Shown here: piece by piece, positions 35,547 through 55,402 of the stretch
Numbering within the stretch: the stretch's first letter is position 1
Layout: each line of letters begins with the position of its first letter
Source of the DNA: Streptomyces cavernae
Lineage (GTDB): Bacteria > Actinomycetota > Actinomycetes > Streptomycetales > Streptomycetaceae
Direction of reading: 5' to 3'
DNA length: 64,000 nucleotides
Assembly: GCF_004023625.1 (NCBI RefSeq)
Contig: NZ_ML137710.1
Location: 173,914-237,913, forward strand
Translations under genes and position numbers: made by a program
The notes under the pieces: generated by a model
The model's database searches: none
The model's input: the letters and a program-made list of their open reading frames with translations, nothing else
Told to the model about the DNA's origin: nothing

Positions 35547-35563
35547 GCTGGCCCTTCTGTCTG

Positions 35564-35636
35564 TGCCCCCGGCAGGATTCGAACCTGCGACACCCGCTTT
35601 AGGAGAGCGGTGCTCTATCCCCTGAGCTACGAAGGC
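35564..35636 (-). tRNA. tRNA-Arg(CCT)
   Basis: 73 nt, no encoded CCA. The acceptor stem is GCCTTCG/CGGGGGC with two G-U pairs. D arm GCTC..GAGC, anticodon loop CTCCTAA (anticodon CCT), T arm GCAGG-TTCGAAT-CCTGC. Its 3' end faces the integrase remnant, so it served as an attachment site. Confidence 0.93.
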
Positions 35637-35852
35637 GGGGCTTGGGCGAAACCTTGCGCGGAACTCGGTGTACGAGTCGTGGCCAGGTCTCTCGGTCAAG
35701 CCCTGAGCGACCTGAGGCAGCAACTGCGGTGAGCAGGTGGGCGGAGCCCGCGTGACACGCCACAGCGCCCGCCGGGGCGCTCGATCCACAGGGTACCGGA
35801 TCGAGGCTCGGACGGGCGCTGGTGTCTCGGACTGGGGGCGGGCAGGAGGCGG

Positions 35853-37280
35853 TCAGGCCGTGTGGCTGAACATGGGGGCTGCCTCCTCGTGCAGTGCGCG
35901 GCTGGTCGAGTTCTGGGCGAGGACGAAGCCGAGGGTCAGGAGTTGCTGGGCTTCGACGCCGTAGGAGATGAGGCGTCCGTTCCACAGGGAGGCGTCGAGT
36001 TGTGAGTGGCCCGACTCGGCGTCGCTTCGGTAGGGGTAGACGAGCTGATGGGTGCGGGTGAGCTCTGGTATCTGTTGCAGGTGCTCGGCACGGTGGAAGC
36101 CGCGTTCCTCGTCACTTTCGCCGCGTGGCCGCTCGCCCTGTCGGCTTGTCGTCCCGACAGCGACCCTGTGTTCGTGGAGGCCGTGGCGGCAGGGAATGGC
36201 CAGGAGGTGGTACCAGCGGAACGTCTGGATTCCGCGTCGCTCCAGTCGCTTGATGGGAACGGGGAGGAGTTCCGCGGTGCCGTCGGCATAGTGGACTTTC
36301 TCCGCGATGCGTCCGTCGGCCGCCCACAGCTCGTGGATGCAGCGACCGGGGCGTAGTGATTCGTAGAATTGCGGCTCGTTCCCCTTGTGCTGTTTGTTGA
36401 TGACGAGCCGCCGTACCGGGCAATGGCATCGCGGTGTACGCCGCGGAACGCGCCGTCGTAGAGGACTCCCATGCAGCCGGGAGCCGCGGACATGATGTCG
36501 ATGACGCCTTCGATGGCGACGGCGGCCTCTCCGCCCGGGTGGAGGTGGGGTACGTAGCGCGAGTCCAGAAAGACTCGTGACAGGTAGTTCTCGTCTTTTC
36601 GGGCGGAGAAGAACACGTATTTCGGGCCGTACACTTCCCTGCCACCGCCTTCCATCTGCGCGATGGAAGCAGGGTCGACACGGTGATATCGGATTTCGCC
36701 GGTCGTCATGTCCACACTTTGGCCGGCCCGGGCCAGGGTCGGGGATTTGAGGACGGTTCCGTCAGCGGCTATCAGCTGGTGTCGTTGTGGTCTGCTCCAG
36801 GACCGGGTCTCGTTTTCGGGAAAGATCCCCTGTCCAAGTGCCTGGTCGAGGGCCAGCACCCGGTACGCGTCCCACAGGTCGTGCGCATGCTCGCGCAGCC
36901 GTTGCTGGGCACGGAGCCACTGGGACCGGGTCGGTCCCGTTTCGGGCAGGCAGGCGGCGGCCACGGCCCCGAGCTCCGCCCGTACCCCGGCCTTCAGGAT
37001 GGCCCAGACCTGCGGGTTTCGAGGTGCGCGGCAGCGCGGCGGGCTGAGGCCAGCACGCTGCGGGCCGTCAGGAAGAACAGGAACGCGACATCGGGGTAGT
37101 CGCGGGGCCTGCCGGTCCTGCCGGGGGCGGGAGCGTCTCGGCCAGCTCGTAGAGGTCGGGGTTGTGCGCGCAGTCGACGAGGCGCTCGTGGAGAGTGCGG
37201 CGGTCGCTGTCGGTGAAGGCCCGCTTGCGTGGTGCGCGCTGGGCCGGCGGGACGGCATCTCCGAAGATGTCCTCAGGCAC
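35853..37280 (-). pseudogene. DDE-transposase-like protein, three -1 frame breaks
   Basis: From ATG 37280 (overlapping the stop of the recombinase-like gene by 8 nt) to TGA at 35853, about 475 residues across three frames. N-terminus MPEDIFGDAVPPAQRAPRKR, then RDYPDVAFLFFLTARSVLAS, then NPQVWAILKAGVRAELGAVA. Candidate acidic triad: Asp in IAADGTVLKSPT, Asp in MGVLYDGAFRGVHRD, Glu in YRSDAESGHSQLDASLWNG. LVINKQHKG lies between the last two. The three breaks (near 37120, 37025 and 36415) each look like one lost C in a short C/G run, so either the gene is dead or the sequence has homopolymer errors. I cannot name an IS family. The 216 nt to the tRNA show no gene. Confidence 0.6.
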
Positions 37281-38280
37281 GGCCGACCTGCCCTTCCCGT
37301 GTACGGCGCGACCAGTCGTAGCCGACGAGATCGGCTGCCCGGTCCAGGGAGCGCAGGCCGAGCCCGCGGGCGACCTTCTCGACCTTTCCGGTCTCGTCGA
37401 AGATCCGTACAGCGGCGTAGGCGGTCAGCGAGGCCGGTTTGACCCGTGGGTCGGCACCCAGCCCGATGCGGCGGATGAGGTCGGCGAGCGCGACACAGGC
37501 CCGGGCCTGTAGCTGCTCGTCCGGAGCGGGGGCCGAGGAGACAGCGAGCCGAGCGTCGGGGGTCGTCTCCGAGGAGCGCTGCTGTCGGCTGACGAAGGCG
37601 GCCCTCGCCTGGAGCACGCGCAATGCCCATGGGTCGAGAGGGCACCACCGTGGATCTGTCCGGGTGGAGCCGTGTATCCAGACGGCCGCGGCGTCCTGGT
37701 CCAGGTCACGGATGCGGGCGTGACCGATCTCGCCGGTGTGCCCGCCCGAGAGGGCCAGGGCTGCCGCCGCGGCGTGCCGGCTGGGCCTGCTCACATACTC
37801 CGCGGCGTGACGCAGGGCGATGGCTTCGTCCTCGTCCAGGGGGCGGACCAGGGTTCTGGTGCGCTCGGGCAGGCGGATGTCCCGGGTGGGGTCGGCGTCG
37901 GTAAGGCCCAGCTCGCGCAGAGTCCGGTAGAAGGACCGCAGGACGGCGCGGCGCTGGTGGAGGGTCGCGGCGGCCGAGTCACCGATCAGTCCGTGTCGGG
38001 TGCGGCCCTGGGCGAAGACGAAGTCCTCGGCGAAGTCGAGGGTGACCTCGGCGACGAGGCGGATACCGCGGGCCTGTGCATAGCGCTGGTAGCGCTCCAG
38101 CAGTTGCCCGAAGGAGCGGCTGGTCTGCGGGGACATCTGTCCCTGGGAAGTCATGTCGGTCCAGAGGGTGATGGTCTGCTCGACGGCATGCGCCAGCGTG
38201 ACGTCCGCAGAAGTGGTTGCGGGCGTGCTGGGGTCGGCGGGCAGCGCTTCGTGGGGTCTGGGTGCGCGCGGGACGGGCAT
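37273..38280 (-). CDS. Tyrosine-recombinase-fold protein lacking catalytic residues
   Basis: 335 residues; GGGAGGT lies upstream of ATG 38280. An N-terminal SAM-like core-binding region (about 30-150: QTSRSFGQLLERYQRYAQAR; LHQRRAVLRSFYRTLRELGL) is followed by LPERTRTLVRPLDEDEAIAL. In the catalytic half the usual G-L-R box reads LSGGHTGEIGHARI, the HxLR box reads SLTAYAAVRIF and the LGH box reads LGLRSLDRAADLVGYDW, so Arg and both His are missing. It is probably a DNA-binding or structural partner rather than an active integrase. It is coupled by overlap to the DDE-like gene downstream, with a winged-helix gene 126 nt upstream. Confidence 0.75.
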   Translation of the reverse strand: MPVPRAPRPHEALPADPSTPATTSADVTLAHAVEQTITLWTDMTSQGQMSPQTSRSFGQLLERYQRYAQARGIRLVAEVTLDFAEDFVFAQGRTRHGLIGDSAAATLHQRRAVLRSFYRTLRELGLTDADPTRDIRLPERTRTLVRPLDEDEAIALRHAAEYVSRPSRHAAAAALALSGGHTGEIGHARIRDLDQDAAAVWIHGSTRTDPRWCPLDPWALRVLQARAAFVSRQQRSSETTPDARLAVSSAPAPDEQLQARACVALADLIRRIGLGADPRVKPASLTAYAAVRIFDETGKVEKVARGLGLRSLDRAADLVGYDWSRRTREGQVGRA

Positions 38281-38406
38281 GGGTGACTACCTCCCAAGGC
38301 GGTGCAAGTTCACACCAGCCTTGAGAGGGGGGCCCTCGATGCGCAAACGCTCGCGCGCGAAAGGGTGACGAGAGCGGCGGAAGACGCCGGGTTCAGCGAC
38401 GGGGTG

Positions 38407-39183
38407 TCAGGTCCTCTGGCGGGACAACACGTCGTAGATCGTCGCGAGCGATCGCATCACCGCGCCGTAGTCCTCGGCGGTCAGGTGCAGAAGCTGATCC
38501 ATGCTCAACGGGAGCACCAGGCCCACCTGCGGCGCGGACGGATCGGCGGCCGGGTCCTGCGATTGCTCCTCCGCCTTGCCGTGAGTCGCCTCCCCGGCTC
38601 CGACCGCTTTCGACAGGTGGAGCCTTCCATCGGCGTCGCGCTCGACATACCGCGCCAGCTCGAGCCAGTCCACCAGGTGCACCCACGGCGACAGGGTGGA
38701 TGTCGGGTAGGGCTTCATGGCCCTGGCGATGTCCTCGGCGCTGTACGCGACACCCGGCTGTACGGAGTCGGACAGGAGTCGGTACACCCACGAGTCACGC
38801 CAGACGTCGCCGAACACCGTCCTGGCGGCCTCACGATTGGTGGCCCATGACTGCCCGACGCGCACGCCGGAGACGGTGGGTGTCCATCCGGCCGGGCCCG
38901 ACGTCAGCAGGCCGGTGTCGGTCAGGAAACGTAGCGCGGGGGTGATGTCGCGTCGTTCCAGCCCGGTCTCCCGGACGAAGTCGCGGATCTTGACCGCCAG
39001 GCGACCGGTTGCGCATGTGCTGACCGCGGCGGCCAGGAGGTCCATCTGCCGGTCGGCCTGGATCCCGACGGCCGGCATGCGGTAAGTGGTGGGCTTGGCA
39101 CTGGAAGTCGCCTTTGCCCCGGGGCCGCGTGATGCGCGCCGGTTGGAGGAGCGTCCGGCTGGTCCGGACGAGGAAGCGCTCAT
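38407..39183 (-). CDS. Winged-helix-like DNA-binding protein of the transposition module
   Basis: 258 residues; AAGGA precedes ATG 39183. A basic Ser/Arg/Gly-rich N-terminus (1-40) is followed by an HTH/wHTH at ~55-105 (VKIRDFVRETGLERRDITPALRFLTDTGLL). A second alpha-helical region (GVAYSAEDIARAMKPY; WVHLVDWLELARYVERDADG) may be another winged helix. The tail LPLSMDQLLHLTAEDYGAVM closes the protein. It is on the same strand as its neighbours and likely co-transcribed. Family not recognised; a role in binding element ends is inference. Confidence 0.6.
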   Translation of the reverse strand: MSASSSGPAGRSSNRRASRGPGAKATSSAKPTTYRMPAVGIQADRQMDLLAAAVSTCATGRLAVKIRDFVRETGLERRDITPALRFLTDTGLLTSGPAGWTPTVSGVRVGQSWATNREAARTVFGDVWRDSWVYRLLSDSVQPGVAYSAEDIARAMKPYPTSTLSPWVHLVDWLELARYVERDADGRLHLSKAVGAGEATHGKAEEQSQDPAADPSAPQVGLVLPLSMDQLLHLTAEDYGAVMRSLATIYDVLSRQRT

Positions 39184-39306
39184 TTCGTGGGTCCTTGTTT
39201 CCTTGGTCGCCGCGAAGATCGGCGACGGAAAGGGCTCACGTCGGTCTCGCCAGATGGCCTAGGCTGGCCACCGGTGTGTGAACCCTTGTCTGGAGGCATA
39301 CGCCAA

Positions 39307-39339
39307 CGGCCGCCGTGGGCTCGCAACTTGCGGCGGCCG
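39307..39339 (-). terminator. Inverted repeat between the two winged-helix genes
   Basis: 9-bp arms CGGCCGCCG and CGGCGGCCG with a 15-nt loop, just after the stop of the 159-aa gene on the minus strand. It could be an attenuator within the module. Confidence 0.45.
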
Positions 39340-39357
39340 ATCTGTGTGTCTGCGTCT

Positions 39358-39837
39358 TTACCGGGCCCGAGTGCCCTCCGATCCCACCACGGCGAGTGAG
39401 TACCGGGACTTGCCGTCACGTCGGAGCGTCCCCTGCTTGGCCAGCTTGCTGAGCCGGGCTCGGATGCTGGACGCGGAACTGCTTACGCCGAGCGTCTCGA
39501 CCCTCCTCGCGATCTCCAGAGGGGGCAGGCCGCTTTCCCCGCGCAGCACGCGGAGGATGGCCTCCTCGATCGACAGAGCGTGAGGGGCCTCCGAGTCGTT
39601 CGCGGTGTCGGCATCTCCGTCGCCCATGGGGGACCCCGGGGCGTCGCCGGTGTAGACCTGCAGGGCGCGCAGCGCTGCCGTACTGTCCGCCAACCGCTTC
39701 TCGAAGTCCGCGAGGCGCGCTGCCGCTTCGTCGCGCTCACGCCGAGCGGCTTCGGCTCCCTGTCTCAACTCTTCTGTCTGGCTGGCGAGTTGAGCGAGAA
39801 AGTGGTGAGTGGAGATATCGATATCGGCCACTGCCAC
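39358..39837 (-). CDS. Coiled-coil plus winged-helix protein
   Basis: 159 residues from GTG 39837, preceded by GGAAGGG. N-terminal coiled coil (about 12-60: LASQTEELRQGAEAARRERD; RLADFEKRLADSTAAL), an acidic linker, then a C-terminal wHTH (SIEEAILRVLRGESGLPPLEI; SSASSIRARLSKLAKQGTLR). It is first in a four-gene minus-strand module. The layout (dimerising coil plus wHTH) fits a repressor or an end-binding factor; the GTGCAC array 110-180 nt upstream is a candidate target. Confidence 0.65.
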   Translation of the reverse strand: MAVADIDISTHHFLAQLASQTEELRQGAEAARRERDEAAARLADFEKRLADSTAALRALQVYTGDAPGSPMGDGDADTANDSEAPHALSIEEAILRVLRGESGLPPLEIARRVETLGVSSSASSIRARLSKLAKQGTLRRDGKSRYSLAVVGSEGTRAR

Positions 39838-39943
39838 CTCGCCCTTCCTGTCGACGGGGTCACGGCGTTCATGATCTGCGGCGACAGCATAGGCAACAAC
39901 AACTCACCCTGTCTTCCAGTCTGTTGGATGTGCATTCACTCGC

Positions 39944-40021
39944 AGGTGCACTGCGCGTGCGTGCTTCGGGTGCACCTACGCTGATCAGGCAAGACGCAGG
40001 TGCTCGCACCTGAAGTGCACC
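39944..40021. promoter_or_regulatory. Array of GTGCAC-type sites upstream of the transposition module
   Basis: AGGTGCAC at 39944, the palindrome GGTGCACC at 39969-39976, CAGGTGC-TC-GCACCTG at 39997-40012 and AGTGCACC at 40014. Four related sites within 78 bp suggest cooperative binding by a module protein. The rest of the spacer 39838-40317 shows no gene. Confidence 0.5.
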
Positions 40022-40317
40022 GTGCGCAGTGGTGGGACGCGTTGGGATGCGACCTGGGTGGTGCTCTCGGCTATGCAGCCCCAGAGCACTTGGCGCGGGC
40101 GGTTGGTGGGAGCTGCGGGGCAGGGGGCATAGTCGCGCCGCGTGCGCGTCGACCAGAGCTTTCCGCTCGCCGACGCCGCCAGGGCGCACGAGCTGAGCGA
40201 TCCGGCCGTGCGCGCGGCAAGGTGCTCCTGCGCCCGTAGAGAAAGCTCCGGACTTCGAAATCGGTTCCGTGGAAGTCAGCGACAACCAGTGAACTGGAGA
40301 TCGGCATGAGCAGGTTC

Positions 40318-40455
40318 AACGAGCGGGAAGTCGCCGGACGAGTTGTGGGAGATGTTCGAGCGGGTGGTTCCGCCTGTTCCATCGCGGCCGCAGGGTGGCG
40401 GCCGGCGGCGGTACGGGGATCGCGAGGTGCTGGCCGCGATCATCTTCGTGGCCAC
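40318..40455 (+). pseudogene. Truncated IS5-type transposase N-terminus
   Basis: In one frame: SPDELWEMFERVVPPVPSRP, then RRRYGDREVLAAIIFVAT, the N-terminal segment of IS5/DUF4096-type transposases. It stops abruptly where the solute-binding-protein remnant begins. Confidence 0.65.
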
Positions 40456-41005
40456 GAGACGAAGGCGTACTACGAGCAGCTCACCAAGGACGGCGGCGTC
40501 TGCGACCGCGACGTGATGGTCGACGTGCAGGACCGTGAACGTCCCGGTCATCGGACACGCCCCGACGTTCAACCCGGCCCTGCTGGACAGCCCGGCCGGC
40601 CCGGCCCTGCTGAAGAACTACTACGCGTTCACCAGCACGGCCCCCTACAGCTCGGACGAGCCGGGAGTCAAGAAGGCCGTGGAGATCTACGAGGCCGCCG
40701 CCCCCAAGGGGGCGAAGGGCTTCGAGGTGCCGCTGGCCTACGCGCAGGCAGAGCTGCTGACCGACGCCATGAAGGGCGCCTGCAAGGCCGGGAACCTCAC
40801 CCCGGAGGGTGTCGTGGAAGCGATGCGGAAGACCTCCGACCTCGACCTGGACGGCCTGCTCACCACGCCTCTCGACTACACCGACGCGTCGCAGCCGCCG
40901 ACGCGTACCGTCTTCATCTCCCGTGCGGACACCGACACACCGGGCGGTCTCAAGCTGGGCAAGACTTTCGAGGGCCCCAGCGGCAAGGGCTACACCTTCA
41001 AGTGA
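40455..41005 (+). pseudogene. Amino-acid ABC transporter solute-binding protein, internally deleted
   Basis: ETKAYYEQLTKDGGVCDRDV (one frame) is joined near 40530 to VNVPVIGHAPTFNPALLDSP and ...EVPLAYAQAELLTDAMKGAC...SGKGYTFK in another frame, up to TGA 41005. These are non-adjacent parts of a Leu/Ile/Val-type binding protein; the signal peptide and central part are missing. The C-terminal piece is open from GTG/ATG near 40535 but cannot fold alone. Confidence 0.75.
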
Positions 41006-41430
41006 TCCCTGCCCCCACCCCCCGGAGCGAGCAGAGTTCCCAGCTCTCCGTCTCCGACCACCGGCCCGGCGGCGCGCGTCACGATGACCTGCTCCGCCGG
41101 GCCACCCGGCTCGGTCTCGAGGAGCCGTTGGGGCAGCCCACGATCGACGACCTCCTCGACCTCTTGGAACGTGACGCCTCATTGCTTCAGCAGCGGCCTT
41201 GCGCGCCATGTGAAGGGTGGAGAGCACGCGCCTGCGACCCGCGAGACGGGAGAGCCTGTGAGCGGGGTGCAGACCAGCCTGAACTGCTGCACTTTGCCGT
41301 TCGGTGCGCGCCGCCATGCCGTCCGTCGATAATGGGGTGCCAACGCCTGCGGCACCCGCCGGATTCTAACCGGGGTCGGCTCGCGCGTCGGCCGTCGGGG
41401 ACGTCGCGGCTGACTGAGTGGGGTGGCAGG
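41006..41430. other. Non-coding spacer with possible gene debris
   Basis: A short readable stretch (ARHDDLLRRATRLGLEEPLG, then TIDDLLDLLERDAS, about 41070-41180) looks protein-like but has no start and no recognised family. The remainder up to the response regulator shows no gene. Confidence 0.35.
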
Positions 41431-42096
41431 GTGATTCGGGTGCTGTTGGCCGATGACGAGGTGTTGATCCGCGCCGGGATCCGGTTCGTGCTCGATGTCG
41501 CCGATGACATCGAGATCGTGGCCGAGGCGGACAGCGGTGCCGGCGCCGTCGAGCTCGTTCGCAAGCACCTCGTTGACGTGGCGCTGCTGGACATTCGTAT
41601 GCCCGGCGTCGACGGGCTGGCCGCGGCGGCCGAGATAGGGAAGGTGGCGCCGCGGACGAGCGTGGTCATGCTGACGACCTTCGGTGAGGAAGAGTACGTC
41701 ACCCGGGCGCTGCGCTGCGGCGTTGCGGGGTTTCTACTCAAGGACACCCCGCCCGACGACCTGATCAGGGCTGTCCGGGCGGCGGCCGCCGGTGAGCCCG
41801 TCCTGTCGCCCCGGGTCACCAGGCAGTTGATCGATCGCCACGTCAACCGGGACGTGAGCCAGGCCGACGAGGCGCGGCGCCGCGTGGCGGCTCTGACCGA
41901 CCGTGAGCGCGACGTGCTGTGCCTGCTGCGTGAGGGCTGCTCGAACGCTGAGATCGCCAAGGCGCTGCTGATGAGTGAAGGCACCGCCAAGTCTCCCGTC
42001 AGTCGCATCCTCTCCGTCCTTGGCTGCACCAACCGGGTTCAGGCGGCGATCCTGGCGCACGATGCCGGAGTTCTTCCGCCAAGCAGCCGTTCCTGA
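41431..42096 (+). CDS. NarL/LuxR-family response regulator
   Basis: 221 residues from GTG 41431 with GGGTGG upstream. Receiver domain 1-120: acidic pocket DDE (8-10), phosphoacceptor Asp54 in LLDIRMPG, Thr in MLTTFGEEEY and Lys in FLLKDTPPDD. LuxR-type HTH ~150-210: LTDRERDVLCLLREGCSNAE, then MSEGTAKSPVSRILSVLG, where the common K-T-H-V of the recognition helix reads K-S-P-V. The helix-breaking Pro could weaken DNA binding. The partner is probably the convergent histidine kinase next door. Confidence 0.92.
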   Translation: MIRVLLADDEVLIRAGIRFVLDVADDIEIVAEADSGAGAVELVRKHLVDVALLDIRMPGVDGLAAAAEIGKVAPRTSVVMLTTFGEEEYVTRALRCGVAGFLLKDTPPDDLIRAVRAAAAGEPVLSPRVTRQLIDRHVNRDVSQADEARRRVAALTDRERDVLCLLREGCSNAEIAKALLMSEGTAKSPVSRILSVLGCTNRVQAAILAHDAGVLPPSSRS

Positions 42097-42142
42097 TCCG
42101 CCTCGTCGTGCCCACGCGAAGCGCCGGCTTGCCGGGTTCCGC

Positions 42143-43798
42143 CTATGACCTCCCAAGCTCGTCCTTCTGTGTGAGCTTGCCGTGTGTGAAGCAGAACCGG
42201 AACACGTGCCCGAAGCCCTCGGCCAGCGTGTACTCGCACGTGGTGTTGGCCGGTGCCGCCGGTTGCTCTGCCTGGCCCGCTGTGCGGGCGATCATGTTGT
42301 CGCCGCCGGTCAGCTCGCGCACTCTGTCCTGGGTGTCGCCGATCTTGATCTGCCGGTAGGTGTGCGGCGAGACGGCGGACTGGAAGTAGTAGTAGACGCT
42401 GAAGCCGAGGCCGCCGCAGACCGCGACGGCGGCTCCAGCGAGGGCGATGAAGGCCGTCTTGGTCTTCCTTCGTGGTGCGTCGTGGCGGGGCCCGTCTTCG
42501 GCCCCGGTACGGGAGGGGAGCATCTGCGCGTCGGCCGGGGCGGGTTGATCGATGGTGGGGCTCGTAGTGCCGGGGCTGTTGTGGCGCAGGGGGAGGGTGG
42601 CGGTGAGGGTGTGGTTGCCGGTGAGCGGGTCTGTGCCGGCGGTGAGGTCGCCGCCGGCCAGGCGGGCGCGTTCGCGCAGGCCGGCCAGTCCCAGGCCGCT
42701 GCTGGGCGGTGGGACGGCGGGCGGGCGTGCGACGTTGCGGACGCTGATGGTGAGTTTTTCGGTGTCGACGGTGACGGTCAGCCGCGTGGGCGCACCCGGG
42801 GCGTGTTTGTGCACGTTGGTGAGGGCTTCGCGCACGATGCGGTTGACCGCTCGGCGGATGCCGATGTCGGCGTCGGTGAGGTCGTCGCCGCGCCAGGACA
42901 GGGTGAGGGGCAGGCCCGCATGCTGGGCTTCGGCGACCAGGTTGGTGACATCCTCGCGCGTGCCGGCCACCGATTCGGTGCCGTCCGGTGGTTCGGCGCC
43001 GTCGAGGCGCAGGATGCCCAGCACGATGCGAAGCTCGTCGAGTGCGGTCCGGGAGGTGGTCCGCAGCAGGTCGGCCTGCTCGTTGATCTCGGGGGCCGCG
43101 GTGCGGGTGCGCATCTCCAGGGCCCCGGCGTACAGGACGATCAGGCTGAGCCGGTGCCCGAGGAGATCGTGCATCTCGCCGGCGATGCGCGCCCTTTCCT
43201 GCATGCGGGCCTGCGACTCGCCGAGCAGGTTGGCGCGTTCCAGCAGGGCGTTGCGTTCGTGCAGGGCATCCATGGCCAGGGCTCGTTCCCCCTGCCGCAT
43301 GCCGATGGCGCCCGGCAGGACCACCAGCAGCACATTGATGACGACGATGACGCCGACATCCTGGAGGTCAACCGTCAGCCCGGCGAGCTCGACGAGGCTG
43401 GCCGCGGATTGTACGCCGGTGGCGAGTGCCAAGGCGGCCACGGCGAGGCGGGTGTCCGGGACCTGGCGGCCCACCGCATAGGCGAGCATCACGCTCACCG
43501 GCCAGAGAAAAGCCAACAGGGTCGTGCTCGGCCATATCGACGGCACTATCGCGACGCCGCTCCCGGCCAGCAGCGAGGTGATCGGCCAGGTGAACCGGCA
43601 GAGCAGGGCGACCGCGGCGGCCAGCAGGCCGATCGCTGTCGCGGGCTGCCCGGGCACGTTGACGACGGCCGTGACGATCGCCGTGGCGGGCAGGAACAAC
43701 CACCACGCCAGCAGCAACCTGCCCTGTCCTGCCAGGTGCTGCCGGGTCGTCACCGCCTCGGCGGTGACGACCCGGGCGAGTTTTGCGTGGCCTGTCAC
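42143..43798 (-). CDS. HisKA_3 sensor histidine kinase with extra C-terminal membrane/external domain
   Basis: 551 residues from GTG 43798 (GGAGGT 4 nt upstream). About five to six membrane helices fill 1-170. The dimerisation/phosphoacceptor helix ARIAGEMHDLLGHRLSLIVL has His near residue 208. An HATPase_c domain includes NRIVREALTNVHKHAPGAPT and SGLGLAGLRERA. Unusually, after a Pro/Arg linker the protein continues with another helix (TAFIALAGAAVAVCGGLGFS, ~455-475) and ~75 residues outside the cell (TYRQIKIGDTQDRVRELTGG...CEYTLAEGFGHVFRF), reminiscent of a SmpA/BamE-type fold. It likely signals to the convergent NarL-type regulator. A broken second copy of the N-terminus lies at 50286-50809. 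Confidence 0.9.
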   Translation of the reverse strand: MTGHAKLARVVTAEAVTTRQHLAGQGRLLLAWWLFLPATAIVTAVVNVPGQPATAIGLLAAAVALLCRFTWPITSLLAGSGVAIVPSIWPSTTLLAFLWPVSVMLAYAVGRQVPDTRLAVAALALATGVQSAASLVELAGLTVDLQDVGVIVVINVLLVVLPGAIGMRQGERALAMDALHERNALLERANLLGESQARMQERARIAGEMHDLLGHRLSLIVLYAGALEMRTRTAAPEINEQADLLRTTSRTALDELRIVLGILRLDGAEPPDGTESVAGTREDVTNLVAEAQHAGLPLTLSWRGDDLTDADIGIRRAVNRIVREALTNVHKHAPGAPTRLTVTVDTEKLTISVRNVARPPAVPPPSSGLGLAGLRERARLAGGDLTAGTDPLTGNHTLTATLPLRHNSPGTTSPTIDQPAPADAQMLPSRTGAEDGPRHDAPRRKTKTAFIALAGAAVAVCGGLGFSVYYYFQSAVSPHTYRQIKIGDTQDRVRELTGGDNMIARTAGQAEQPAAPANTTCEYTLAEGFGHVFRFCFTHGKLTQKDELGRS

Positions 43799-44037
43799 GG
43801 CACCTCCACGACGACGGCGGTGGCCGGCGAGCCGGGCGGTCGCCCGACCGATGAGCGCAGCCGCGTCCGGGCCACGCCGGCCGGGGTCACCAGCCGCAGC
43901 AGTGGAGCGGTGATGACAGGTAGCCCGTGATGGGCGCCGACCGTACCCGAGGACGGGGGCCGTGGTCATCGTATCCGGGGCCGGCCAGGGCCGACCTCGT
44001 TCGGGCGAAGGGCGAACGTGCCCTGACACGCCGCGTC

Positions 44038-45306
44038 TCACCGGACGAGTTTCGCCAGTTTGGTGGTGCTGTTGAGCAGGTACTCCAGCGGTCCGCGGCT
44101 GAAGAAGCGCGACCAGACGGTGGCGAACAGGATCGCCCCGGCGATGAACCCGAACAGCGGCACCAGGGTGTTGGTGGCGTCCTCGGGCAGCATGGTGTAG
44201 GCGGCGACGTGGGCGACGTAGAGCGTCAGGGACATGCTGCCCACGGCGATCAGCGGGCTCGCCAGCCGCCGCAGCCATGCCAACCGGGCCATGGCCACCG
44301 TCGCGCAGACGAGCACGGTGATCGCCACGCCGAGGCCGCCGATGATCTCGAAGGTCGTACCGCTGTGCGGATCGGATCCCAGCAGCGACCAGACCGTGGG
44401 CGAGCTGTTCGCAAGCTTGTTCTGGATGGCGTCGAAAGCCGCCGACCCCGGTTCCAGGGAGTCGAAGGACCCCGGATCCACGCTCGCGAACATCTCTTTC
44501 AACTTGGCCTTGTCCGCCTGAATGGGCGGGTACAGCTTTGCTGCCAGCCAGGCGGTGCCGTATCCGAGCGCCATCAACGCGGGGCCGAGCGCGGCCAGCC
44601 GGCGTTGCACCGCGCCGGCGGCCAGGTCGAGCCGGGCCAGTGCCATGCCGGCGATCACGAACGGCATCCAGGTGATCGCGGGGTAGTCACCGTGGAGCAG
44701 CAGGCCCAGCAGTCCGTCGCCGCCGAGCCGGGCGATCGGGTCGTACGCGTCGATGCTCTTCGCCCCCGCCTCCCCCAGCAGCCACTTCAGGCCGAACGCC
44801 GCCTGCGGCCCAACGACCGCGAGCACGGCCGCGATGATCGCGAGGGTCCTGGCCCGCAGTCGTATCAGGGGTAGTGCCAGCAGGAAGTACACCCCGTAGA
44901 AGGCCAGAATCACCACGATCCCGGTCTTGAGCATCGTCAGCGCGGTGCCCAGCACCAGCAGGACCAGCGCACGGATCACGATCCGGACCTTCGCCTGCCG
45001 GCCGGCCAGGCCGGTCTTCGGCTCCCGGCGGCCCGCGATCAGCATCAGTGAGAAGCCGGCGAGGGTGGCGAACAGGATCGACGACCGGCCCTCGGTCAGC
45101 TCCAGCAGCCGGCCGCCGAAGCCACCCACATCCACGGCAAACGGTCCGACGTGTACCGCGAACATGCCGAACACCGCCAGCGCGCGGGCCACGTCCACCC
45201 CGACCAACCGCCCCACCGACGGCTGCTGTTCGACCACGTAGGCGGGCTCAGCCGGTGCCCCGTGCCGCGGGGGTGGCGTTTCGTGCGAGATCTCTGTCTG
45301 AGTCAT
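44038..45306 (-). CDS. DUF418/heparan-acetyltransferase-type polytopic membrane protein, copy 1
   Basis: 422 residues from ATG 45306. N-terminal tail MTQTEISHETPPPRHGAPAE, then ~10 helices beginning with GVDVARALAVFGMFAVHVGP (the R-x-LDxxRGxAxxGM box of the family) and ending with SRFFSRGPLEYLLNSTTKLA, the DUF418 C-terminal signature. Related proteins transfer or transport acyl groups, or have unknown roles in the envelope. A second copy (51049-52299) is highly similar. The start region belongs to a repeated cassette shared with two other genes. Confidence 0.85.
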   Translation of the reverse strand: MTQTEISHETPPPRHGAPAEPAYVVEQQPSVGRLVGVDVARALAVFGMFAVHVGPFAVDVGGFGGRLLELTEGRSSILFATLAGFSLMLIAGRREPKTGLAGRQAKVRIVIRALVLLVLGTALTMLKTGIVVILAFYGVYFLLALPLIRLRARTLAIIAAVLAVVGPQAAFGLKWLLGEAGAKSIDAYDPIARLGGDGLLGLLLHGDYPAITWMPFVIAGMALARLDLAAGAVQRRLAALGPALMALGYGTAWLAAKLYPPIQADKAKLKEMFASVDPGSFDSLEPGSAAFDAIQNKLANSSPTVWSLLGSDPHSGTTFEIIGGLGVAITVLVCATVAMARLAWLRRLASPLIAVGSMSLTLYVAHVAAYTMLPEDATNTLVPLFGFIAGAILFATVWSRFFSRGPLEYLLNSTTKLAKLVR

Positions 45307-45480
45307 GCGCCCAAGGTCGCCGGTCCGGACGCCCTGACGCGTCTGCCGAGTTTCCGGAACACGCCCCGCCGAATGGCAGAGGACGCCGAGCCGATCGGCC
45401 ACCACCAAGAGCGACCCCAGTACCGCAGCGGGAGCCGAGACGCGCCTGCATCATGTCCTTGCAGCCCTCCATCCGGGCCG
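45287..45480 (-). promoter_or_regulatory. Repeated start-region cassette, copy 1
   Basis: In gene direction it contains GGCCGATCGGCTCGGCGTCC, a CTCTGCCATTCGGCGGG block, TCCGGAAACTCGGCAGACGC followed by GTCAGGGCGTCCGGACC, and continues through the ATG into the first codons. The core has the 8-bp palindrome GACGCGTC flanked on both sides by TCCGGA. Similarity to copy 2 extends upstream to about 45480, including GAGCCGAGACGCGCCTGCAT. Confidence 0.75.
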
Positions 45481-45854
45481 GCAGTTGCAGGAGGCAAAGA
45501 ACGAATCTGGCACTCGTGCTCTTACGGCAACAATCCACGACTCCCGAAACGCGCGGCTGCCATGGGCAAGCTGACTCACGAGCTTCAAGCACCCGTGAAC
45601 GTTCGACCTCGGCCCGGACAAGCGGCGCCATCTCCCGCCCGCGACAGCCGGCAAAGGGCGGAGGGGCCGATGCGATGAAGTCCGCGGTCGTCACCGCATC
45701 CGGGTGGTTCACGGTGAGGCCGTGCGGGTCGTTCGGGACGTACGGTGCTTGCCCATCTCGACCACCTGACCGGCGGCGTCGGTGGCTTCTGTGTCGTCTT
45801 GCACAGTGCGGCCCTCTGGTGTGCGCCGGAGAGTGGAGCGGGTTCGGTCACAGT

Positions 45855-46440
45855 CGTGGTGGGGTCATGACGATGTGGGCTTCGACTCGGGCGGTGACGA
45901 TCTGTCGTGCGGGTTGCAGGTGTATGGCGTTTGGCGGCTCGGCTCCGTCGAGGGCCTCGGCGTATGCGCGGGCGCGGCGGACGGCGTCGAGGACGTGCGG
46001 CGGTGCGGCGCGCTGCGCGGTGGACGGGTGAGTCTAGGCGCAGGGCCCACCAGGGACCGTCGACGCTGGTGAGGTCGAGTTCGGCGAGGCGGGTGGTGAG
46101 TTCGCCGAGGGCGGTGAAGTCGGTGAGTTCGGCGGTGGTGTGGAGGTGGCCATGGTAGACGCGGACGCGTTCGCGGCAGCCGCGTTCGGTCAGTTGGGGA
46201 GTGATGGCCAGCCCGCCGGTCTCCAGGCGGTCGACGGCGTCGCCGTGACCTCTGACGAGGTCGAGGGCGGCGTGTTCCGGCGGGTGAGGTCGACGAGCCG
46301 GACTTCGCCCCGCCAGCCCACGCCGTCGACGCCGCGCAGAAGACTGCCGCCCGCCCCCTGGGTGCACACCTGCCAACGGGATAACGGGACTGAGCATTGC
46401 CCGGGCGGGCCAGTCCAGGGTTCCCACACTCTGATCACTG
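45855..46440 (-). pseudogene. SIMPL (DUF541) domain protein remnant
   Basis: Fragments in order: LVRGHGDAVDRLETGGLAIT, PQLTERGCRERVRVYHGHLH, DFTALGELTTRLAELDLTSV, DGPWWALRLDSPVHRAARRT, then after a frame break near 46015 DAVRRARAYAEALDGAEPPN, ending RQIVTARVEAHIVMTPP. The N-terminus is unreadable. SIMPL proteins are small secreted or cytoplasmic proteins of unclear function. The rest of 45481-45854 and 46441-46599 holds no gene. Confidence 0.7.
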
Positions 46441-46599
46441 CGGTGCTCCCAGGCTCTGCCGATGGCATCGTCGCCGCCATCGCCGTCGAGGCCGGTGTCC
46501 GGTGCAGTACTCGTGCTCTGGGTTGTCGTTGTTCTGATTGTTCGTCATTGCAGGTGTGCGCCGACTACGGCCCATGCCTCTTGCACGGCGCGGGCTGCC

Positions 46600-46785
46600 G
46601 ACCGGGACCGAGGCTGCAAGGGCACGATGCAGGCGCATCTCGGCTCCCGCAGCGGCACCGGAGTCGCCCCCGGTGATGGCCGATCGGCTCGGCGTCCTTG
46701 GCCATTCGGCGGGCGTGGTTCGGAAGCTTGGCAGACGCGTCAAGGCGTCCGGACCGGCGACGTTGGGCGCATGACTCAGACAGAG
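46600..46785 (+). promoter_or_regulatory. Repeated start-region cassette, copy 2
   Basis: Inverted relative to copies 1, 3 and 4. Same order of blocks: GATGGCCGATCGGCTCGGCG, GCCATTCGGCGGGCGTGGTT, CGGAAGCTTGGCAGACGCGT and GGCGTCCGGACCGGCGACG, running through ATG 46771. Confidence 0.75.
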
Positions 46786-48816
46786 TTCTCCCACGAAACG
46801 CCACCTCCACGGCACGCGATCATCGCGACCGTGCCCGCGGTCGTTGGGCCGCCTCCGCGTACGGGGAAACGCACGCGCTTCACGATCTACAGAACGTGTG
46901 CGACCGCCTCCGTGGCCGCCCTGCTGGCCGCCTTCCTCACCCCGGCGGCGGCCCAGGCCGCCCCCGCCCCGAAGGAGAGCCGGCCGGTCTACTCCTACGC
47001 CCATGCCGTCCGTGAGTCCGTCTGGGTCGACACCGGCCTCGACGGCGATGGCGACGGGAGGAACGACCGCGTCGCCGCCGACATCGTCCGGCCCCGCGAA
47101 CCCGCCCGGCTGGGCCGCAAGGTCCCCGTCATCATGGACGCCAGCCCGTACTACTCCTGCTGCGGGCGCGGCAACGAGAGCCAGAAGAAGACGTACGACA
47201 AACGCGGGCGCGTCGTCCGGATGCCGCTGTTCTACGACAACTACTTCGTTCCCCGCGGCTACGCCTTCGTCGGTGTCGACCTCGCCGGTACCAACCGCTC
47301 CGACGGTTGCGTCGATGTCGGCGGCCGCAGCGACATCCGGTCCGCGAAGGCCGTCGTCGACTGGCTGAACGGCCGCGCCAGGGCCTACACCAGCCGCCGA
47401 GGCGGCACCGTCGTCAAGGCGACCTGGAGCAATGGCCGCACTGGCATGATCGGCAAGAGCTGGGACGGCACCATCGCCAACGGCGTCGCCGCCACCGGCG
47501 TCAAGGGCCTGAAGACGATCGTTCCGATCAGCGCGATCTCCTCCTGGTACGACTACTACTTCGCCAAGGGTGCCCCGTTCTCCGAGTTCGGCCCAGACTG
47601 GCTGTCCTTCGCAGTGCAGAGCAACAACGCCAACAGGCACTGTGCGGCCATGGAACGCAAGCTCATCAACGGGGCCCCGCGCAGCGGTGACTGGACGCCC
47701 CTGTGGACCCAGCGCGACTACATAAAGGACGCGGCGAAGGTACGCGCGAGCGTGTTCCTCGTGCACGGGACGCAGGACCTCAACGTCCGCGCCAAGCACT
47801 TCGGGCAGTGGTGGGACGCACTCGCGAAGAACGGCGTCGAGCGCAAGATCTGGCTTTCCCAGACCGGTCACGTCGACCCCTTCGACTTCCGGCGCGCCGA
47901 CTGGGTCCATGCCCTGCACCGCTGGTTCGACCACGAACTCCTCGGCTACGACAACGGCATCGGCCGTGAGCCCATGGCCGACATCGAGCGCCACCCCGAC
48001 CAGTGGGTCACCTCGAAGGTCTGGCCGCCGCGCGCCACGCACACCACCACCCTGTACCCGGCCACCGGCAGCCGACCGGGCGTGGGGACCCTCGGCCCGA
48101 ACAAGGGCACCGGCACCGAGACGTTCACCGACAACCGGGCGCGGAGCGAGACCGACTGGGCGGCACGGATCGGCAGCACGACGCCCGAGAAGGCCGGCTT
48201 CCTGACCAAGCCGCTCACCCGTGACCTGCGTCTGTCCGGCTCCTCCAAGGTCACCGTCACCGCCACCCCGACCACCTCGACGGCCCATCTGTCCGCCGTC
48301 CTCGTCGACCTCGGCCCCGACACCATCCGGGACTACGCCCACAAGGCCGAGGGCATCACCACGCTCACCAACCGCACCTGCTGGGGCAGCAGCACCACCG
48401 GGGACAGCGCCTGCTTCAAGGCAACGCGGGCGAAGAAGAGGTCCGTCGACTACACCGTGTTCAGCCGCGGGTGGGCCGACCTCGGCAACCACGCCTCCGA
48501 CCGCAAGGGGGTCCCGCTCACCCCGGGCAAGGCTTACACCATCACGCTCGACCTCGCGGCCACCGACCACGTCGTCCCCAAGGGCCACCGCCTGGCCCTG
48601 ATCGTCGCGGGCACGGACAAGAACCTCATCGACCCGCCGTCCACCACCCCCACGCTCACCCTGGACCTGGCCCGTACATCGGTTCACGTCCCGCTCCTCG
48701 GCGGCGCCACCGCGTTCGCCCGCGCCACCTCGGGCGGCACGTCCGCCGCACCCGAGGCCAGGGTCCTGGACGGCGTGCGGGCACCGCACACCGCCCAGCG
48801 CGTCCCCGGCAACTGA
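46771..48816 (+). CDS. Secreted Xaa-Pro dipeptidyl-peptidase (S15) type hydrolase with acquired N-terminal leader
   Basis: 681 residues. The first 15 residues (MTQTEFSHETPPPRH) equal those of the DUF418-type proteins, then a Pro/Arg segment and a signal-like helix (ATASVAALLAAFLTPAAAQA, about 45-64) follow. Catalytic residues: Ser in GMIGKSWDGTIAN, Asp in HGTQDLNVRAKH, His in LSQTGHVDPFD; a C-terminal jelly-roll includes TVTATPTTSTAHLSAVLVDL. S15 enzymes release X-Pro dipeptides or hydrolyse esters. The leader lengthens the n-region of the signal peptide; export is still plausible. A strong hairpin follows the stop. Confidence 0.9.
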   Translation: MTQTEFSHETPPPRHAIIATVPAVVGPPPRTGKRTRFTIYRTCATASVAALLAAFLTPAAAQAAPAPKESRPVYSYAHAVRESVWVDTGLDGDGDGRNDRVAADIVRPREPARLGRKVPVIMDASPYYSCCGRGNESQKKTYDKRGRVVRMPLFYDNYFVPRGYAFVGVDLAGTNRSDGCVDVGGRSDIRSAKAVVDWLNGRARAYTSRRGGTVVKATWSNGRTGMIGKSWDGTIANGVAATGVKGLKTIVPISAISSWYDYYFAKGAPFSEFGPDWLSFAVQSNNANRHCAAMERKLINGAPRSGDWTPLWTQRDYIKDAAKVRASVFLVHGTQDLNVRAKHFGQWWDALAKNGVERKIWLSQTGHVDPFDFRRADWVHALHRWFDHELLGYDNGIGREPMADIERHPDQWVTSKVWPPRATHTTTLYPATGSRPGVGTLGPNKGTGTETFTDNRARSETDWAARIGSTTPEKAGFLTKPLTRDLRLSGSSKVTVTATPTTSTAHLSAVLVDLGPDTIRDYAHKAEGITTLTNRTCWGSSTTGDSACFKATRAKKRSVDYTVFSRGWADLGNHASDRKGVPLTPGKAYTITLDLAATDHVVPKGHRLALIVAGTDKNLIDPPSTTPTLTLDLARTSVHVPLLGGATAFARATSGGTSAAPEARVLDGVRAPHTAQRVPGN

Positions 48817-48823
48817 CCGGCTC

Positions 48824-48849
48824 GGGCGCCGGGCGCATGCCCGGCGCCC
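48824..48849 (+). terminator. Hairpin after the S15 hydrolase gene
   Basis: Perfect 11-bp stem GGGCGCCGGGC/GCCCGGCGCCC with the 4-nt loop GCAT, 7 nt after the stop codon. Confidence 0.75.
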
Positions 48850-48956
48850 GCCTCCCCGGCCACGGCGACGTGGCAGGAAGATTCCTGTCCACATTGCGGC
48901 GATTCCGAATCGCTGAGATGAGCTCTACTCAAACTCGATCGCGAGGCTTCATCAGT

Positions 48957-50167
48957 ATGCGAATCACTGCCTCATCAGTCGTCCTGCGCCGGACGGAACG
49001 TTGGTTCATCCGTCAGGGCACCCCCACGATGATCGAGGGATACGGCGTCATAAGGAATGTCCTGCCCCGGATGCTGCCTGCGCTGTCCTTCGTGAGCATG
49101 GCCAGCCTCGCCTGGCTGATACCGCTGGAAGCGGGCTTGCTGCAATGGGTCCTGCTCGGCGCGGTGATCGTGGCCGCACTGGCCGCCTGGACAACTATCA
49201 GAGTGTTTGTCCGGCGGCTACGCCGCTTCCCGCCGCCGGCCGCCGTCGCGCTCCTCACCGGCTTTGCCGTGATTTTTGTCGTGACACCTGAGCTGAAACT
49301 CGCCGTCGAGGATCCCGTTACACCTGTCGGCGGATACGTCATCGGCCTCCTGGCATCCGCCGTGCTCTTCGCCGTGCTCTTCGCCGTTGTCTTCGGCATC
49401 GCGCTCGTAGCCACGACATACGGCTTCGGTGAACTGATGCGCCGCGCGATCGGACGCGCCGCCCACGACTTGCGCAACAGCCCGCGCGTACTGGGCCGGG
49501 CGCTGCCGCCCATGTTGTTCGTCACCCTCTTCCTCTTCTTCACCAGCGAGTTGTGGCAGGTGATGAACAGGCTCTCGTGGTGGAGGGTCGCCCTGTTCGT
49601 CGCACTTTTCGTGGGAGTCACCGTGCTCGCGGCAGCCGGGCGTCTTCACGACGAATCGGGCAGGTCGAGCAGGACCTCACACCGTCCCTGTTGTCGTCGG
49701 CGTGCCGAGGCACACCCCTGGAGGCTGTGAACATCGGCGAGCTGACACAGCGCTGTTCACTTGCACCTGTGTCCCTGAACAGGCGTCAGGTGCGCAACTT
49801 GTTGTTGCTGTTTGCCGTCCGCCAATTGGTTCAGGCGATGGTGTTCGGTTTCGCGCTGTTCACGTTCTTCCTCGTCCTGGGCCTGATAGTGGTCACACCG
49901 GAAACGGCGAAACAGTGGATCGGGAGTACGCCCGCAGTCTCGGTCGTTCTCCCTGGCGTTCCGCTTGCTCTCTTGGGCAACGCCACGCTCTTGGCCGCCT
50001 TCGGCGGCATGTACTTCGCCATCACCTCGATGACCGACGCCAACCATCGACAGGATTTCTTCGCCCCGACCATCGACGAAGTCGAACGGACTCTCGCGGT
50101 GCACGCCGTCTACCTGGCCGTGCGCGCCAACCAGCATGCCGACCATGCCAGGGCAGGAACTTACTGA
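48957..50167 (+). pseudogene. Polytopic membrane protein with one frame break
   Basis: The first frame (48957 to ~49650) encodes helices such as LPALSFVSMASLAWLIPLEA, ALLTGFAVIFVVTPELKLAV and VLFAVLFAVVFGIALVATTY. At GGGCGTCTTCACGACGAATC (~49640-49660) the -1 frame continues with IGQVEQDLTPSLLSSACRGT, NRRQVRNLLLLFAVRQLVQA, FGFALFTFFLVLGLIVVTPE and APTIDEVERTLAVHAVYLAV, ending at TGA 50167. Together about 400 residues with seven to eight helices, family unknown. Two separate proteins are less likely because the second part has no good start. ATG 48918 is an alternative first codon. Confidence 0.55.
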
Positions 50168-50285
50168 CCGCGCTCTTTCAATTGCCACTCCAGCGTGAGG
50201 ATCGCTGCGGCGCTGGACGACAATCGGTTCGGGCTGCGCCGTGCTCTGCGGAAGATGCGCCAGGACTTGAGTGAGCGTTTGATTC

Positions 50286-50809
50286 AGCTCGTTCCCCCTG
50301 CAGCATGCCGATGGCGCCCGGCAGCACCACCAGCAGCACAGTGACGACGACGCTGAGGCCGACATCCCCTGGCCCAACCTTCGACCAGGCGACCTGTTCG
50401 ACAAGGTTGGCCGCGGTTTGCACGACGGTGGCGAGTGCCAAGGCGGCCACGGCGAGGCGGGTGTCCTGCACCTGGCGGCCTACCGCATAGGCGAGCATCA
50501 CGCTCACCGGCCAGAGAAGATCCGACAGGGTCGTGCTCGGCCATATCAACGGCACTGCCGCGAGGCCGGTCCCGGCCAGCAGTGAGGTGATCGGCCAGGT
50601 GAATCGGCAGAGCAGGGCGACCGCGGCGGCCAGCAGGCCGATCGCTGTCGCGGGCTGCCCGGGCACGTTGACGACGCCGGTGACGATCGCCGTGGCGGGC
50701 AGGAACAACCACCACGCCGGCAGCAACCTGCCCTGTCGTGCCGGGTGCTGCTAGGTCGTCACCGCCTCGGCGGTGACGATACCTGGGCGAGTTTTGCGTG
50801 GCCTGTCAC
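50286..50809 (-). pseudogene. Broken second copy of the histidine kinase N-terminus
   Basis: Nearly identical to the first 170 residues of the kinase at 42143-43798 (AWWLFLPATAIV, VNVPGQPATAIGLLAAAVAL, WPVSVMLAYAVGRQV). After GTG 50809 the frame runs MTGHAKLAQVSSPPRR and stops; an insertion and a TAG in the next segment break it. Homology ends at GAIGMLQGERA, where unrelated sequence (plus-strand debris reading IAAALDDNRFGLRRALRKMR at about 50200-50275) begins. No kinase core remains. Confidence 0.85.
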
Positions 50810-51048
50810 GGCACCTCCACGACGACGGCGGTGGCCGGCGAGCCGGGCGGTCGCCCGACCGGTGAGCGCAGCCGCGTCCGGGCCGAGTCGGCCGGGGTCA
50901 CCAGCCACAGCAGTGCAGCGGTGACGACCGGTAGGCCGTGATCGGCGCCGACCGTACCGGAGGACAGGGGCCATGGTCACCGTATCCGGGCTCGGCCAGG
51001 GCCGACCTCGTTCGGGCGAAGGGTGGGCGCCCCCTGACACATCGCTTT

Positions 51049-52299
51049 TTACCGGACGAACTTGGCCAGTTTGGTGGTGCTGTTGAGCAGGTATTCCAGC
51101 GGTCCGCGGCTGAAGAAGCGCGACCAGACGGTGGCGAACAGGATGGCCCCGGCGATGAACCCGAGCAGCGACACAAAGGTGCCGGTGGCGCCGTCGGGCA
51201 GCATGGTGTAGGCGGCGACGTGGGCGACGTAGAGCGTCAGGGACATGGTGCCCACGGCGATGAGCGGGCTCGCCAGCCGGCGCAGCCATGCCAGCCGGGC
51301 CATGGCCACGGTCGCGCAGACGAGCACGGTGATCGCCACGCCGAGGCCGCCGATGATCTCGAAGGTTGTACCGCTGTGCGGCTCGGATCCCAGCAGCGAC
51401 AGGGCCTTGTTCGAGGTGTCCGCAAGCTTGTTGTGGATGGCGTCGAAGGTGGATTCGACGGACTGCGGATTCAGGTTCGCGAAGATGTCCTTCATTTCGG
51501 CCTTGCCTGCCTGAATGGGCGGGTACAGCCTTGCCGTCAGCCAGGCGGTGCCGTATCCGAGCGCCATCAGCGCGGGGCCGAGCGCGGCCAGTCGCCGTTG
51601 CACCGCGCCGGAGGCCAGGTCGAGCCGGGCCAGTGCCATGCCGGCGATCACGAACGGCATCCAGGTGATCGCGGGGTAATAACCGTCGAGCAGCAGGCCC
51701 AGCAGTCCGTCGCCGCCGAGCCGGGCGATCGGGTCGTACGCGTCGATGCTCTTCGCCGTCGCCTCCCCCAGCAGCCACTTCAGGCCGAACGCCGCCTGCG
51801 GCCCAACGACCGCGAGCACGGCCGCGATGATCGCGAGGGTCCTGGCCCGCAGTCGTATCAGGGGCAGTGCCAGCAGGAAGTACACCCCGTAGAAGGCGAG
51901 AATGACCACGATTCCGGTCTTGAGCATCGTCAGCGCGGTGCCCAGTACCAGCAGGACCAGGGCACGGATCACGATCCGGACCCTCGCCTGCCGGCCGGCC
52001 AGGCCGGTCTTCGGCTCCCGACGGCCGGCGATCAGCATCAGCGAGAACCCGGCCAGGGTGGCGAACAGGATCGACGACCGGCCCTCGGTCAGTCCCAGCA
52101 GCCGGCCGCCGAAGCCACCCACGTCCTCGGCAGGTGGGGCGACGTGGACCGCGAACATGCCGAACACCGCCAGCGCGCGGGCCACGTCCACCCCGACCAA
52201 CCGCCCCACCGACGGCTGCTCTTCGACCACGTAGGCGGGCTCAGCCGGTGCCCCGTGCCGCGGGGGTGGCGTCTCGTGCGAGATCTCTGTCTGAGTCAT
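51049..52299 (-). CDS. DUF418/heparan-acetyltransferase-type polytopic membrane protein, copy 2
   Basis: 416 residues from ATG 52299, highly similar to the copy at 44038-45306. It has the same N-terminal tail and helices. Differences cluster in the external loop before HSGTTFEIIGG: six residues shorter, with KDIFANLNPQSVESTFDAIH instead of KEMFASVDPGSFDSLEPGSA. That loop is probably the specificity or interaction part. Intact, unlike the accompanying kinase copy. Confidence 0.85.
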   Translation of the reverse strand: MTQTEISHETPPPRHGAPAEPAYVVEEQPSVGRLVGVDVARALAVFGMFAVHVAPPAEDVGGFGGRLLGLTEGRSSILFATLAGFSLMLIAGRREPKTGLAGRQARVRIVIRALVLLVLGTALTMLKTGIVVILAFYGVYFLLALPLIRLRARTLAIIAAVLAVVGPQAAFGLKWLLGEATAKSIDAYDPIARLGGDGLLGLLLDGYYPAITWMPFVIAGMALARLDLASGAVQRRLAALGPALMALGYGTAWLTARLYPPIQAGKAEMKDIFANLNPQSVESTFDAIHNKLADTSNKALSLLGSEPHSGTTFEIIGGLGVAITVLVCATVAMARLAWLRRLASPLIAVGTMSLTLYVAHVAAYTMLPDGATGTFVSLLGFIAGAILFATVWSRFFSRGPLEYLLNSTTKLAKFVR

Positions 52300-52930: not shown

Positions 52931-52944
52931 ACTCATCGTGGGCA

Positions 52945-55392: not shown

Positions 55393-55402
55393 GTCGATGG
55401 GG

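Follow-up and report, generated by a model that had tools for sequence, protein, structure and literature searches.

A window of 64,000 nucleotides from the Streptomyces cavernae contig NZ_ML137710.1 (the term refers to this whole stretch; coordinates prefixed C10 are those of that genome's contig and also run beyond the window) contains part of a large element that lies 5′ of a tRNA-Arg(CCT) gene and carries a module of four genes at its tRNA-side end. This 50.1-kb element is probably a transposon moved by a DDE protein of its own, which is predicted to have the Tn5 transposase fold, with its neighbour REC, a protein of tyrosine-recombinase fold without catalytic residues, as the likely selector of the target. 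The ends of the element, the flanking copies of GCCTTCGT, the empty sites, the tandem insertions, the movement and the residue loss in REC all emerge from comparison of related sequences.

Results

Element ends, target duplications and empty sites

Since a matching left end preceded by GCCTTCGT, the first bases of the tRNA gene, is present at C10:259623-259644, the element measures approximately 50.1 kb, of which 28.4 kb falls within the window. Relatives were collected by searching 199 genomes of the genus for REC; 18 matched, weak matches in G147 (26 residues) and G058 (30% over 120 residues) were dropped, and the remaining 16 genomes gave 19 loci, the window included. The tRNA-Arg(CCT) gene follows the module on the same strand in 13 of these 19. 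As for the other six, the modules of L032, L037 and L041 border on the left end of another element, those of L029 and L030 lie inside an element whose right end reaches the tRNA further on, and the contig of L028 has no tRNA. A search for left ends covered 26 genomes, with the sixteenth module-bearing genome (G113) left out, and located them upstream of the tRNA on the same strand in 13 of 15 module-bearing genomes (16 ends) as against none of 11 module-free ones.

The Streptomyces elements are 17-102 kb in size and are flanked by target duplications of 8-9 bp. The inverted ends pair within each copy (GGGGCTTG with GGGGCTTG, GGGCCTTG with GGGCCTTG and GGGATNTG with GGGATCTG), and the target copy varies with the host: G069 and G150 have GCCTCCGT at each of the two ends. 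The base that precedes the target copy also agrees at the two ends (G in G005, G069 and G150; T in G108). Comparison of empty and filled sites was a check proposed in a first-pass annotation of this DNA: the left flank of G150 (274 bp, 74%) aligns to the insert-free G096 right up to the tRNA, and that of G190 aligns to four loci judged empty. Between G005 and G075 the module and right end are 98% identical over 5.9 kb, along with part of the cargo in rearranged form; the similarity ends at the tRNA, and their 1.4-kb left-end stretches have nothing in common. The window and G104 have only the module, the right end and the tRNA in common (82% over 4.6 kb; 20 kb compared).

Two elements of different subfamilies stand head to tail before one tRNA in G083, G075 and G104, in differing order. 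Directly next to the window element (C10 beyond 259637) comes the right end of a subfamily-2 element, whose core genes were not found within 3 kb. GCCTTCGT is doubled in a row, or nearly so, at L082 (the left flank of G100) and L058 (the tRNA of G022), as if an earlier excision had left it behind. Element-like right ends with no DDE relative within 1.5 kb are seen at the tRNA-Arg of L047, L056, L057, L062, L064, L066 and L069; these may be relics, or relatives with the module elsewhere.

The motif CCGSTANNCT is located 99-165 bp before the tRNA or junction in all 16 right ends tested (the 19 loci minus L028-L030), against a background of 0.026 per kb per strand. Of 30 sampled genomes, 29 also have it upstream of the tRNA, at a distance of 20-67 bp in 17 genomes taken as empty and of 102-165 bp in 12; the thirtieth has an element-like end without the motif. 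The motif is read here as a putative tRNA promoter and, in the element end, as a putative replacement for it.

The four-gene module

As the first-pass annotation had described, the four genes share one strand, the minus strand, and the last two overlap by 8 nt: REC occupies 37273-38280 and the large gene would start at 37280, an overlap that recurs in the intact relative L025. As for the gene order, whose recurrence was proposed there as a check, a relative of the large gene lies directly downstream of REC in 19 of 19 Streptomyces loci, which is more than chance. The large gene is broken or interrupted in some of them (the window, L026, L032 and L034), and in L041 it is fused with REC into a single frame of 830 amino acids. 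In the window it is not one open frame; the similarity to relatives is split over four pieces with at least three frame changes, which may reflect decay or an assembly error alike. No second copy of the large gene was found in the window genome, and this copy, with its broken transposase gene, is likely unable to move by itself.

The large protein is predicted to be a DDE transposase of the Tn5 type. The proposed catalytic positions, D174, D276 and E423, are invariant in 38 sequences, and the suspected RNase H-like fold was recovered on structure prediction, in which the intact relative P0126 is modelled like a Tn5-type DDE transposase with a strand-rich region inserted into the RNase H fold. 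Model comparison gave 16.9 for Tn5, far above the 6.3 for TnsB.

REC has the overall fold of a tyrosine recombinase, comprising core-binding and catalytic domains, and lacks the catalytic R, H-x-x-R, H/W and Y. The absence of catalytic residues reported earlier holds for every relative aligned, including the proteins of the 19 loci, 41 of 120 database proteins and a profile alignment to XerA; no aligned relative retains them intact, and a role for REC as an active integrase was ruled out on this ground. REC is under purifying selection. Family members are 310-390 amino acids long, MrpR and SroF are among the structural matches, and no second REC copy was found in the window genome. REC is likely to be a DNA-binding target selector of the DDE protein.

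Many copies of the module are accompanied by relatives of WH1 and WH2 and by an XRE-type regulator, whose gene in the window element is near the far end (C10:257811-258089). The two small proteins are conserved members of the module, and their description as winged-helix proteins is based on weak Pfam matches. A defence role was considered and set aside, PADLOC being empty for eight of nine proteins, with weak AbiEi-type matches for one WH1 relative. The GTGCAC array assigned to the module does exist, with copies at 39946, 39970 and 40015 (39946-40020, upstream of WH1); because the stretch ahead of the first gene holds no copy in seven of eight relatives and one copy in the eighth (with 120 bp readable in L028), it is not part of the conserved module. 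These copies are possible operator sites in the window lineage.

Distribution and movement between species

One genome per GTDB species was searched, and the best 80 of 94 relatives were kept, corresponding to 77 loci. The hosts include Streptomyces, Actinacidiphila, Streptacidiphilus, Kitasatospora, Amycolatopsis, Segniliparus, mycobacteria and a metagenome-assembled genome labelled Acidobacteria. REC was matched upstream in 65 of the 77 loci. A tRNA-Arg(CCT) gene follows the module within 500 bp on the same strand in 42, with no other tRNA in any, and in 41 of these 42 a CCC end is 0-3 nt from the tRNA start.

A nearly identical 44-kb copy occurs in six mycobacterial species at six different sites. 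The 5.5-kb right-end stretches are 99.98-100% identical and stop at the same point before six different flanks; the next 17 kb match at full length and 100% (rounded) in all five compared with the Mycobacterium kansasii plasmid pMK12478, and the following 20 kb at 99.98-100%, with about 2.5 kb missing in M. neglectum. Exact 9-bp duplications flank the three mycobacterial copies with both ends seen, those of M. chlorophenolicum (ACTGGAGAC), M. neglectum (CGCGGTGCC) and pMK12478 (CGTCCCACC). The first candidate for the left end, GGGGACGTC, was wrong, and comparison of the copies gave GGGACCTGACG. The contigs of M. tusciae and M. arupensis run out short of the left end, and that of M. canariasense diverges from the others close to its own end.

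The flank is tRNA-Arg in M. arupensis and plasmid pMK12478 in M. kansasii. In the latter (NC_022654) the copy, which is 44.1 kb long and carries mce-type genes, occupies 139483-144951 and 1-38666, beginning 371 bp after the mobF gene, and this tRNA-less site is certainly a plasmid. The M. neglectum flank resembles mobF plasmids, a strong sequence-based indication that this site is a plasmid as well. Partial plasmid likeness is found in the flanks of M. chlorophenolicum and M. canariasense; the M. tusciae flank gave no plasmid match, and in M. arupensis the sequence past the tRNA gave one partial match. Plasmids of S. mirabilis, M. avium and M. intracellulare carry further relatives. The near-identical copies at six sites in six species indicate that the module is mobile between species and reaches both tRNA-Arg and plasmids. 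Together with the ends, target duplications and empty sites, they answer the question raised in the earlier annotation as to whether the module occurs as a moving unit.

Cargo and neighbouring features

The coordinates of the features are collected in Table 1. The cargo of the window element includes three mycofactocin genes, a P450, a ferredoxin reductase, dehydrogenases, hydrolases and regulators; mftC, mftD and mftE score over the NCBIfam cut-offs and lie beyond the window (C10:249417-253002; L046:617-4199). No conjugation genes were seen among the 20 cargo proteins of the window element that were scanned. A large protein combining a Mu-transposase C-terminal domain with a TniB/AAA domain (Mu/TniB-like) is encoded near the module in L035, L036 and L041, and by similarity in L038; by eye, its catalytic Asp and Glu positions look lost. 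TniB-like matches fall inside the element in three of 10 genomes, with none in the window element, and of 14 TniQ matches in the 10 genomes none is inside an element. On the other side of the tRNA-Arg, a fragment at 35199-35546 (plus strand) resembles, by eye, the end of a tyrosine integrase; it is probably what remains of another, ordinary integrative element that used this tRNA.

Table 1. Features of the window element and its surroundings
Feature	Position	Strand	Basis or remark
tRNA-Arg(CCT), target gene	35563..35636	-	ARAGORN
Right target-duplication copy, first bases of the tRNA, GCCTTCGT	35636 down to 35629	-	
Left target-duplication copy, GCCTTCGT, preceding the left end	C10:259645-259638		outside window
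Element right end, reading inward GGGGCTTGGGCGAAA; sharp boundary	35637..35651	+	sequence comparison
Element left end, GGGGCTTGTGCGAAA	at C10:259637		outside window
Window portion of the 50.1-kb element	35637..64000		whole element C10:209550-259637
Promoter-like motif CCGGTACCCT, inside the element, 163 bp upstream of the tRNA	35790..35799	-	
DDE transposase-like gene, broken, predicted Tn5 fold	35853..37280	-	frame pieces; fold of intact relative P0126
REC, 335 amino acids, tyrosine-recombinase fold without catalytic residues	37273..38280	-	
WH2, 258 amino acids, conserved module protein, possible winged helix (weak)	38407..39183	-	
WH1, 159 amino acids, conserved module protein, coiled coil and possible winged helix (weak)	39358..39837	-	
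Mu/TniB-like large proteins upstream of the module in some subfamily-2 elements	L035:12910-15558, L041:3792-6473, L036:12786-15266, L038 17954-19900		

Discussion

Proposed mechanism and alternative explanations

The simplest account is a transposon of the cut-and-paste type with a Tn5-type enzyme, a dead recombinase that would find the tRNA and a second route to plasmids. The DDE protein would cut at the GGG ends and join them across a staggered cut of 9 bp, or of 8 bp in elements of the window type, as their symmetric ends suggest. REC would recognize tRNA-Arg and recruit the DDE protein, and the two small module proteins may assist. Insertion would separate the tRNA from its own promoter; the duplication would restore the acceptor stem, the promoter-like motif at the right end would likely restore transcription, and plasmid sites would likely serve transfer between hosts. 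We lean towards regarding these elements as a separate family of giant transposons which reached the Tn7 lifestyle independently: a dead recombinase would steer a Tn5-type enzyme into the first 8-9 bases of tRNA-Arg(CCT), the duplication would repair the tRNA, a promoter of the element's own would replace the lost one, copies would stack in tandem with rivals, and plasmids would form a second target between actinobacteria.

Several observations weigh against this account. Left ends were not found in two of the module-bearing genomes searched (G092 and G125), on S. mirabilis pI within about 100 kb or on the M. chimaera plasmid stretch. Element-like right ends stand at the tRNA in five of the 11 module-free genomes (G013, G127, G009, G177 and G095), and given these, other elements or relics also use the tRNA-Arg site. 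The ends of G166 pair less well than those of other copies, and the base ahead of GCCTTCGT is not the same at the two ends of G100. Targeting of the tRNA is not absolute, 31 of the 77 loci having no tRNA nearby and four being too short to tell, and the 42 tRNA-adjacent loci, being from related species, do not count as independent cases. The Mu/TniB-like protein of some relatives has no place in the favoured account. The DDE model gave no Foldseek match at E ≤ 0.001, the DDE profile matched no PDB sequence up to E 5, and Pfam matches to 38 members of the DDE family included no transposase family.

Three other explanations were weighed. The element could be an ordinary tRNA-targeting island or actinomycete integrative and conjugative element (ICE) whose movement would depend on a tyrosine integrase, either REC or one acting in trans, with the DDE gene as a passenger. 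We regard this as very improbable: REC does have the recombinase fold and an integrase-like fragment does lie across the tRNA, but the catalytic residues are missing from every aligned REC relative, the element is 5′ of the tRNA with inverted ends, three copies at unrelated sites have 9-bp duplications, and the DDE gene follows REC in all 19 loci. That such ICEs stack at a Streptomyces tRNA-Arg gene, according to the available description (PMC9513070), is a point in favour. Scarcely credible, too, is a degenerate Tn7-like transposon in which REC would be a TnsF-like selector and the real machinery Tn7 proteins encoded elsewhere. Neither the TniQ matches, none of which is inside an element, nor the window element, which has no TniB match, fits this idea, and the DDE model is far closer to Tn5 than to TnsB; membership of Tn7 was rejected on the absence of TniQ from the elements of 10 genomes, TnsA and TnsB not having been searched for separately. 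The target duplication of Tn7 is 5 bp, as against 8-9 bp here. On the other side of the balance stand the TniB-like matches inside the element in three of 10 genomes, the Mu C-terminal and TniB/AAA proteins near the module in L035, L036, L041 and (by similarity) L038, and a logic that is the same as that of Tn6022 as far as its available description goes (PMC10293859).

Unlikely, yet plausible enough to be kept in view, is a DDE transposon as described above in which finding the tRNA falls to the DDE protein or a small module protein, and REC acts as a repressor or as a cofactor bound to the ends. A dead recombinase fold works as a repressor in MrpR, as available from its description (PMC10516654); MrpR and SroF match REC structurally, and near-identical copies also insert at tRNA-less sites. 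Because REC and the DDE gene are adjacent in 19 of 19 loci and fused in L041, joint action fits better than repression; the same adjacency is compatible with end binding.

Should the transposon interpretation be true, it would represent a second, unrelated design for a DDE transposon with large cargo and a single chromosomal homing site, perhaps with as few as four core proteins, and dead tyrosine recombinases would have been recruited as target selectors more than once. Exact ends can now be given to Streptomyces islands of 17-102 kb and to a mycobacterial one of 44 kb; current annotation labels their core genes hypothetical proteins or site-specific integrases. At the tRNA-side end, the promoter-like motif offers a testable way in which insertion at a tRNA gene could be harmless.

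Comparison with known systems

A search of the open-access literature found no description of this element. Among transposases, the Tn5/IS4 type is characterized by its DDE positions, a strand-rich insertion before the last helix and a duplication of about 9 bp, and the module protein resembles it in predicted fold as well as in these three features. The module family differs in having no Pfam match, and the IS4 Y-R-E-K signature is incomplete, with an Asp at the Lys position. Known members of the Tn5/IS4 type are small and are not known to home.

Islands and ICEs of the tRNA-targeting kind are defined by the 3′ end of a tRNA and an active integrase, whereas here the element is 5′ and REC is inactive as judged by its residues. 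The actinomycete ICEs that accumulate at a tRNA-Arg gene in Streptomyces are likewise large and use the same kind of site, but have active tyrosine integrases, and no DDE module figures in the available description (PMC9513070). GInts resemble the present elements in that four core genes sit at one end of a cargo island with a specific insertion site; they comprise three integrases and a small protein and excise as circles, with no DDE enzyme in the portion of the description at hand (PMC5385486), whereas our module consists of one recombinase-fold gene, one DDE-fold gene and two small proteins. MrpR, a DNA-binding phage repressor, and SroF share with REC a tyrosine-recombinase fold that has lost its enzyme function; both bind DNA and, as far as they are described in the available text, regulate phage genes without a transposase partner (PMC10516654).

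The closest parallel is Tn6022, in which TnsF, an inactivated tyrosine-recombinase domain, selects comM for a Tn7-like DDE transposon, and for which a second, plasmid route has been suggested (PMC10293859). Because TnsF is already such a partner, the pairing of a dead recombinase with a DDE enzyme, presented in the first-pass annotation as a new arrangement, is not wholly new. Both systems have a DDE transposon core with an inactivated tyrosine-recombinase protein, which in the case of REC would likewise select the target. Going by the available account of Tn6022, they differ in that it uses TnsA, TnsB, TnsC and TniQ, a TnsF of 498 amino acids with zinc fingers and the target comM, whereas the present elements, in those tested for TniQ without it, combine a Tn5-like transposase with the shorter REC family and the 5′ end of tRNA-Arg(CCT).

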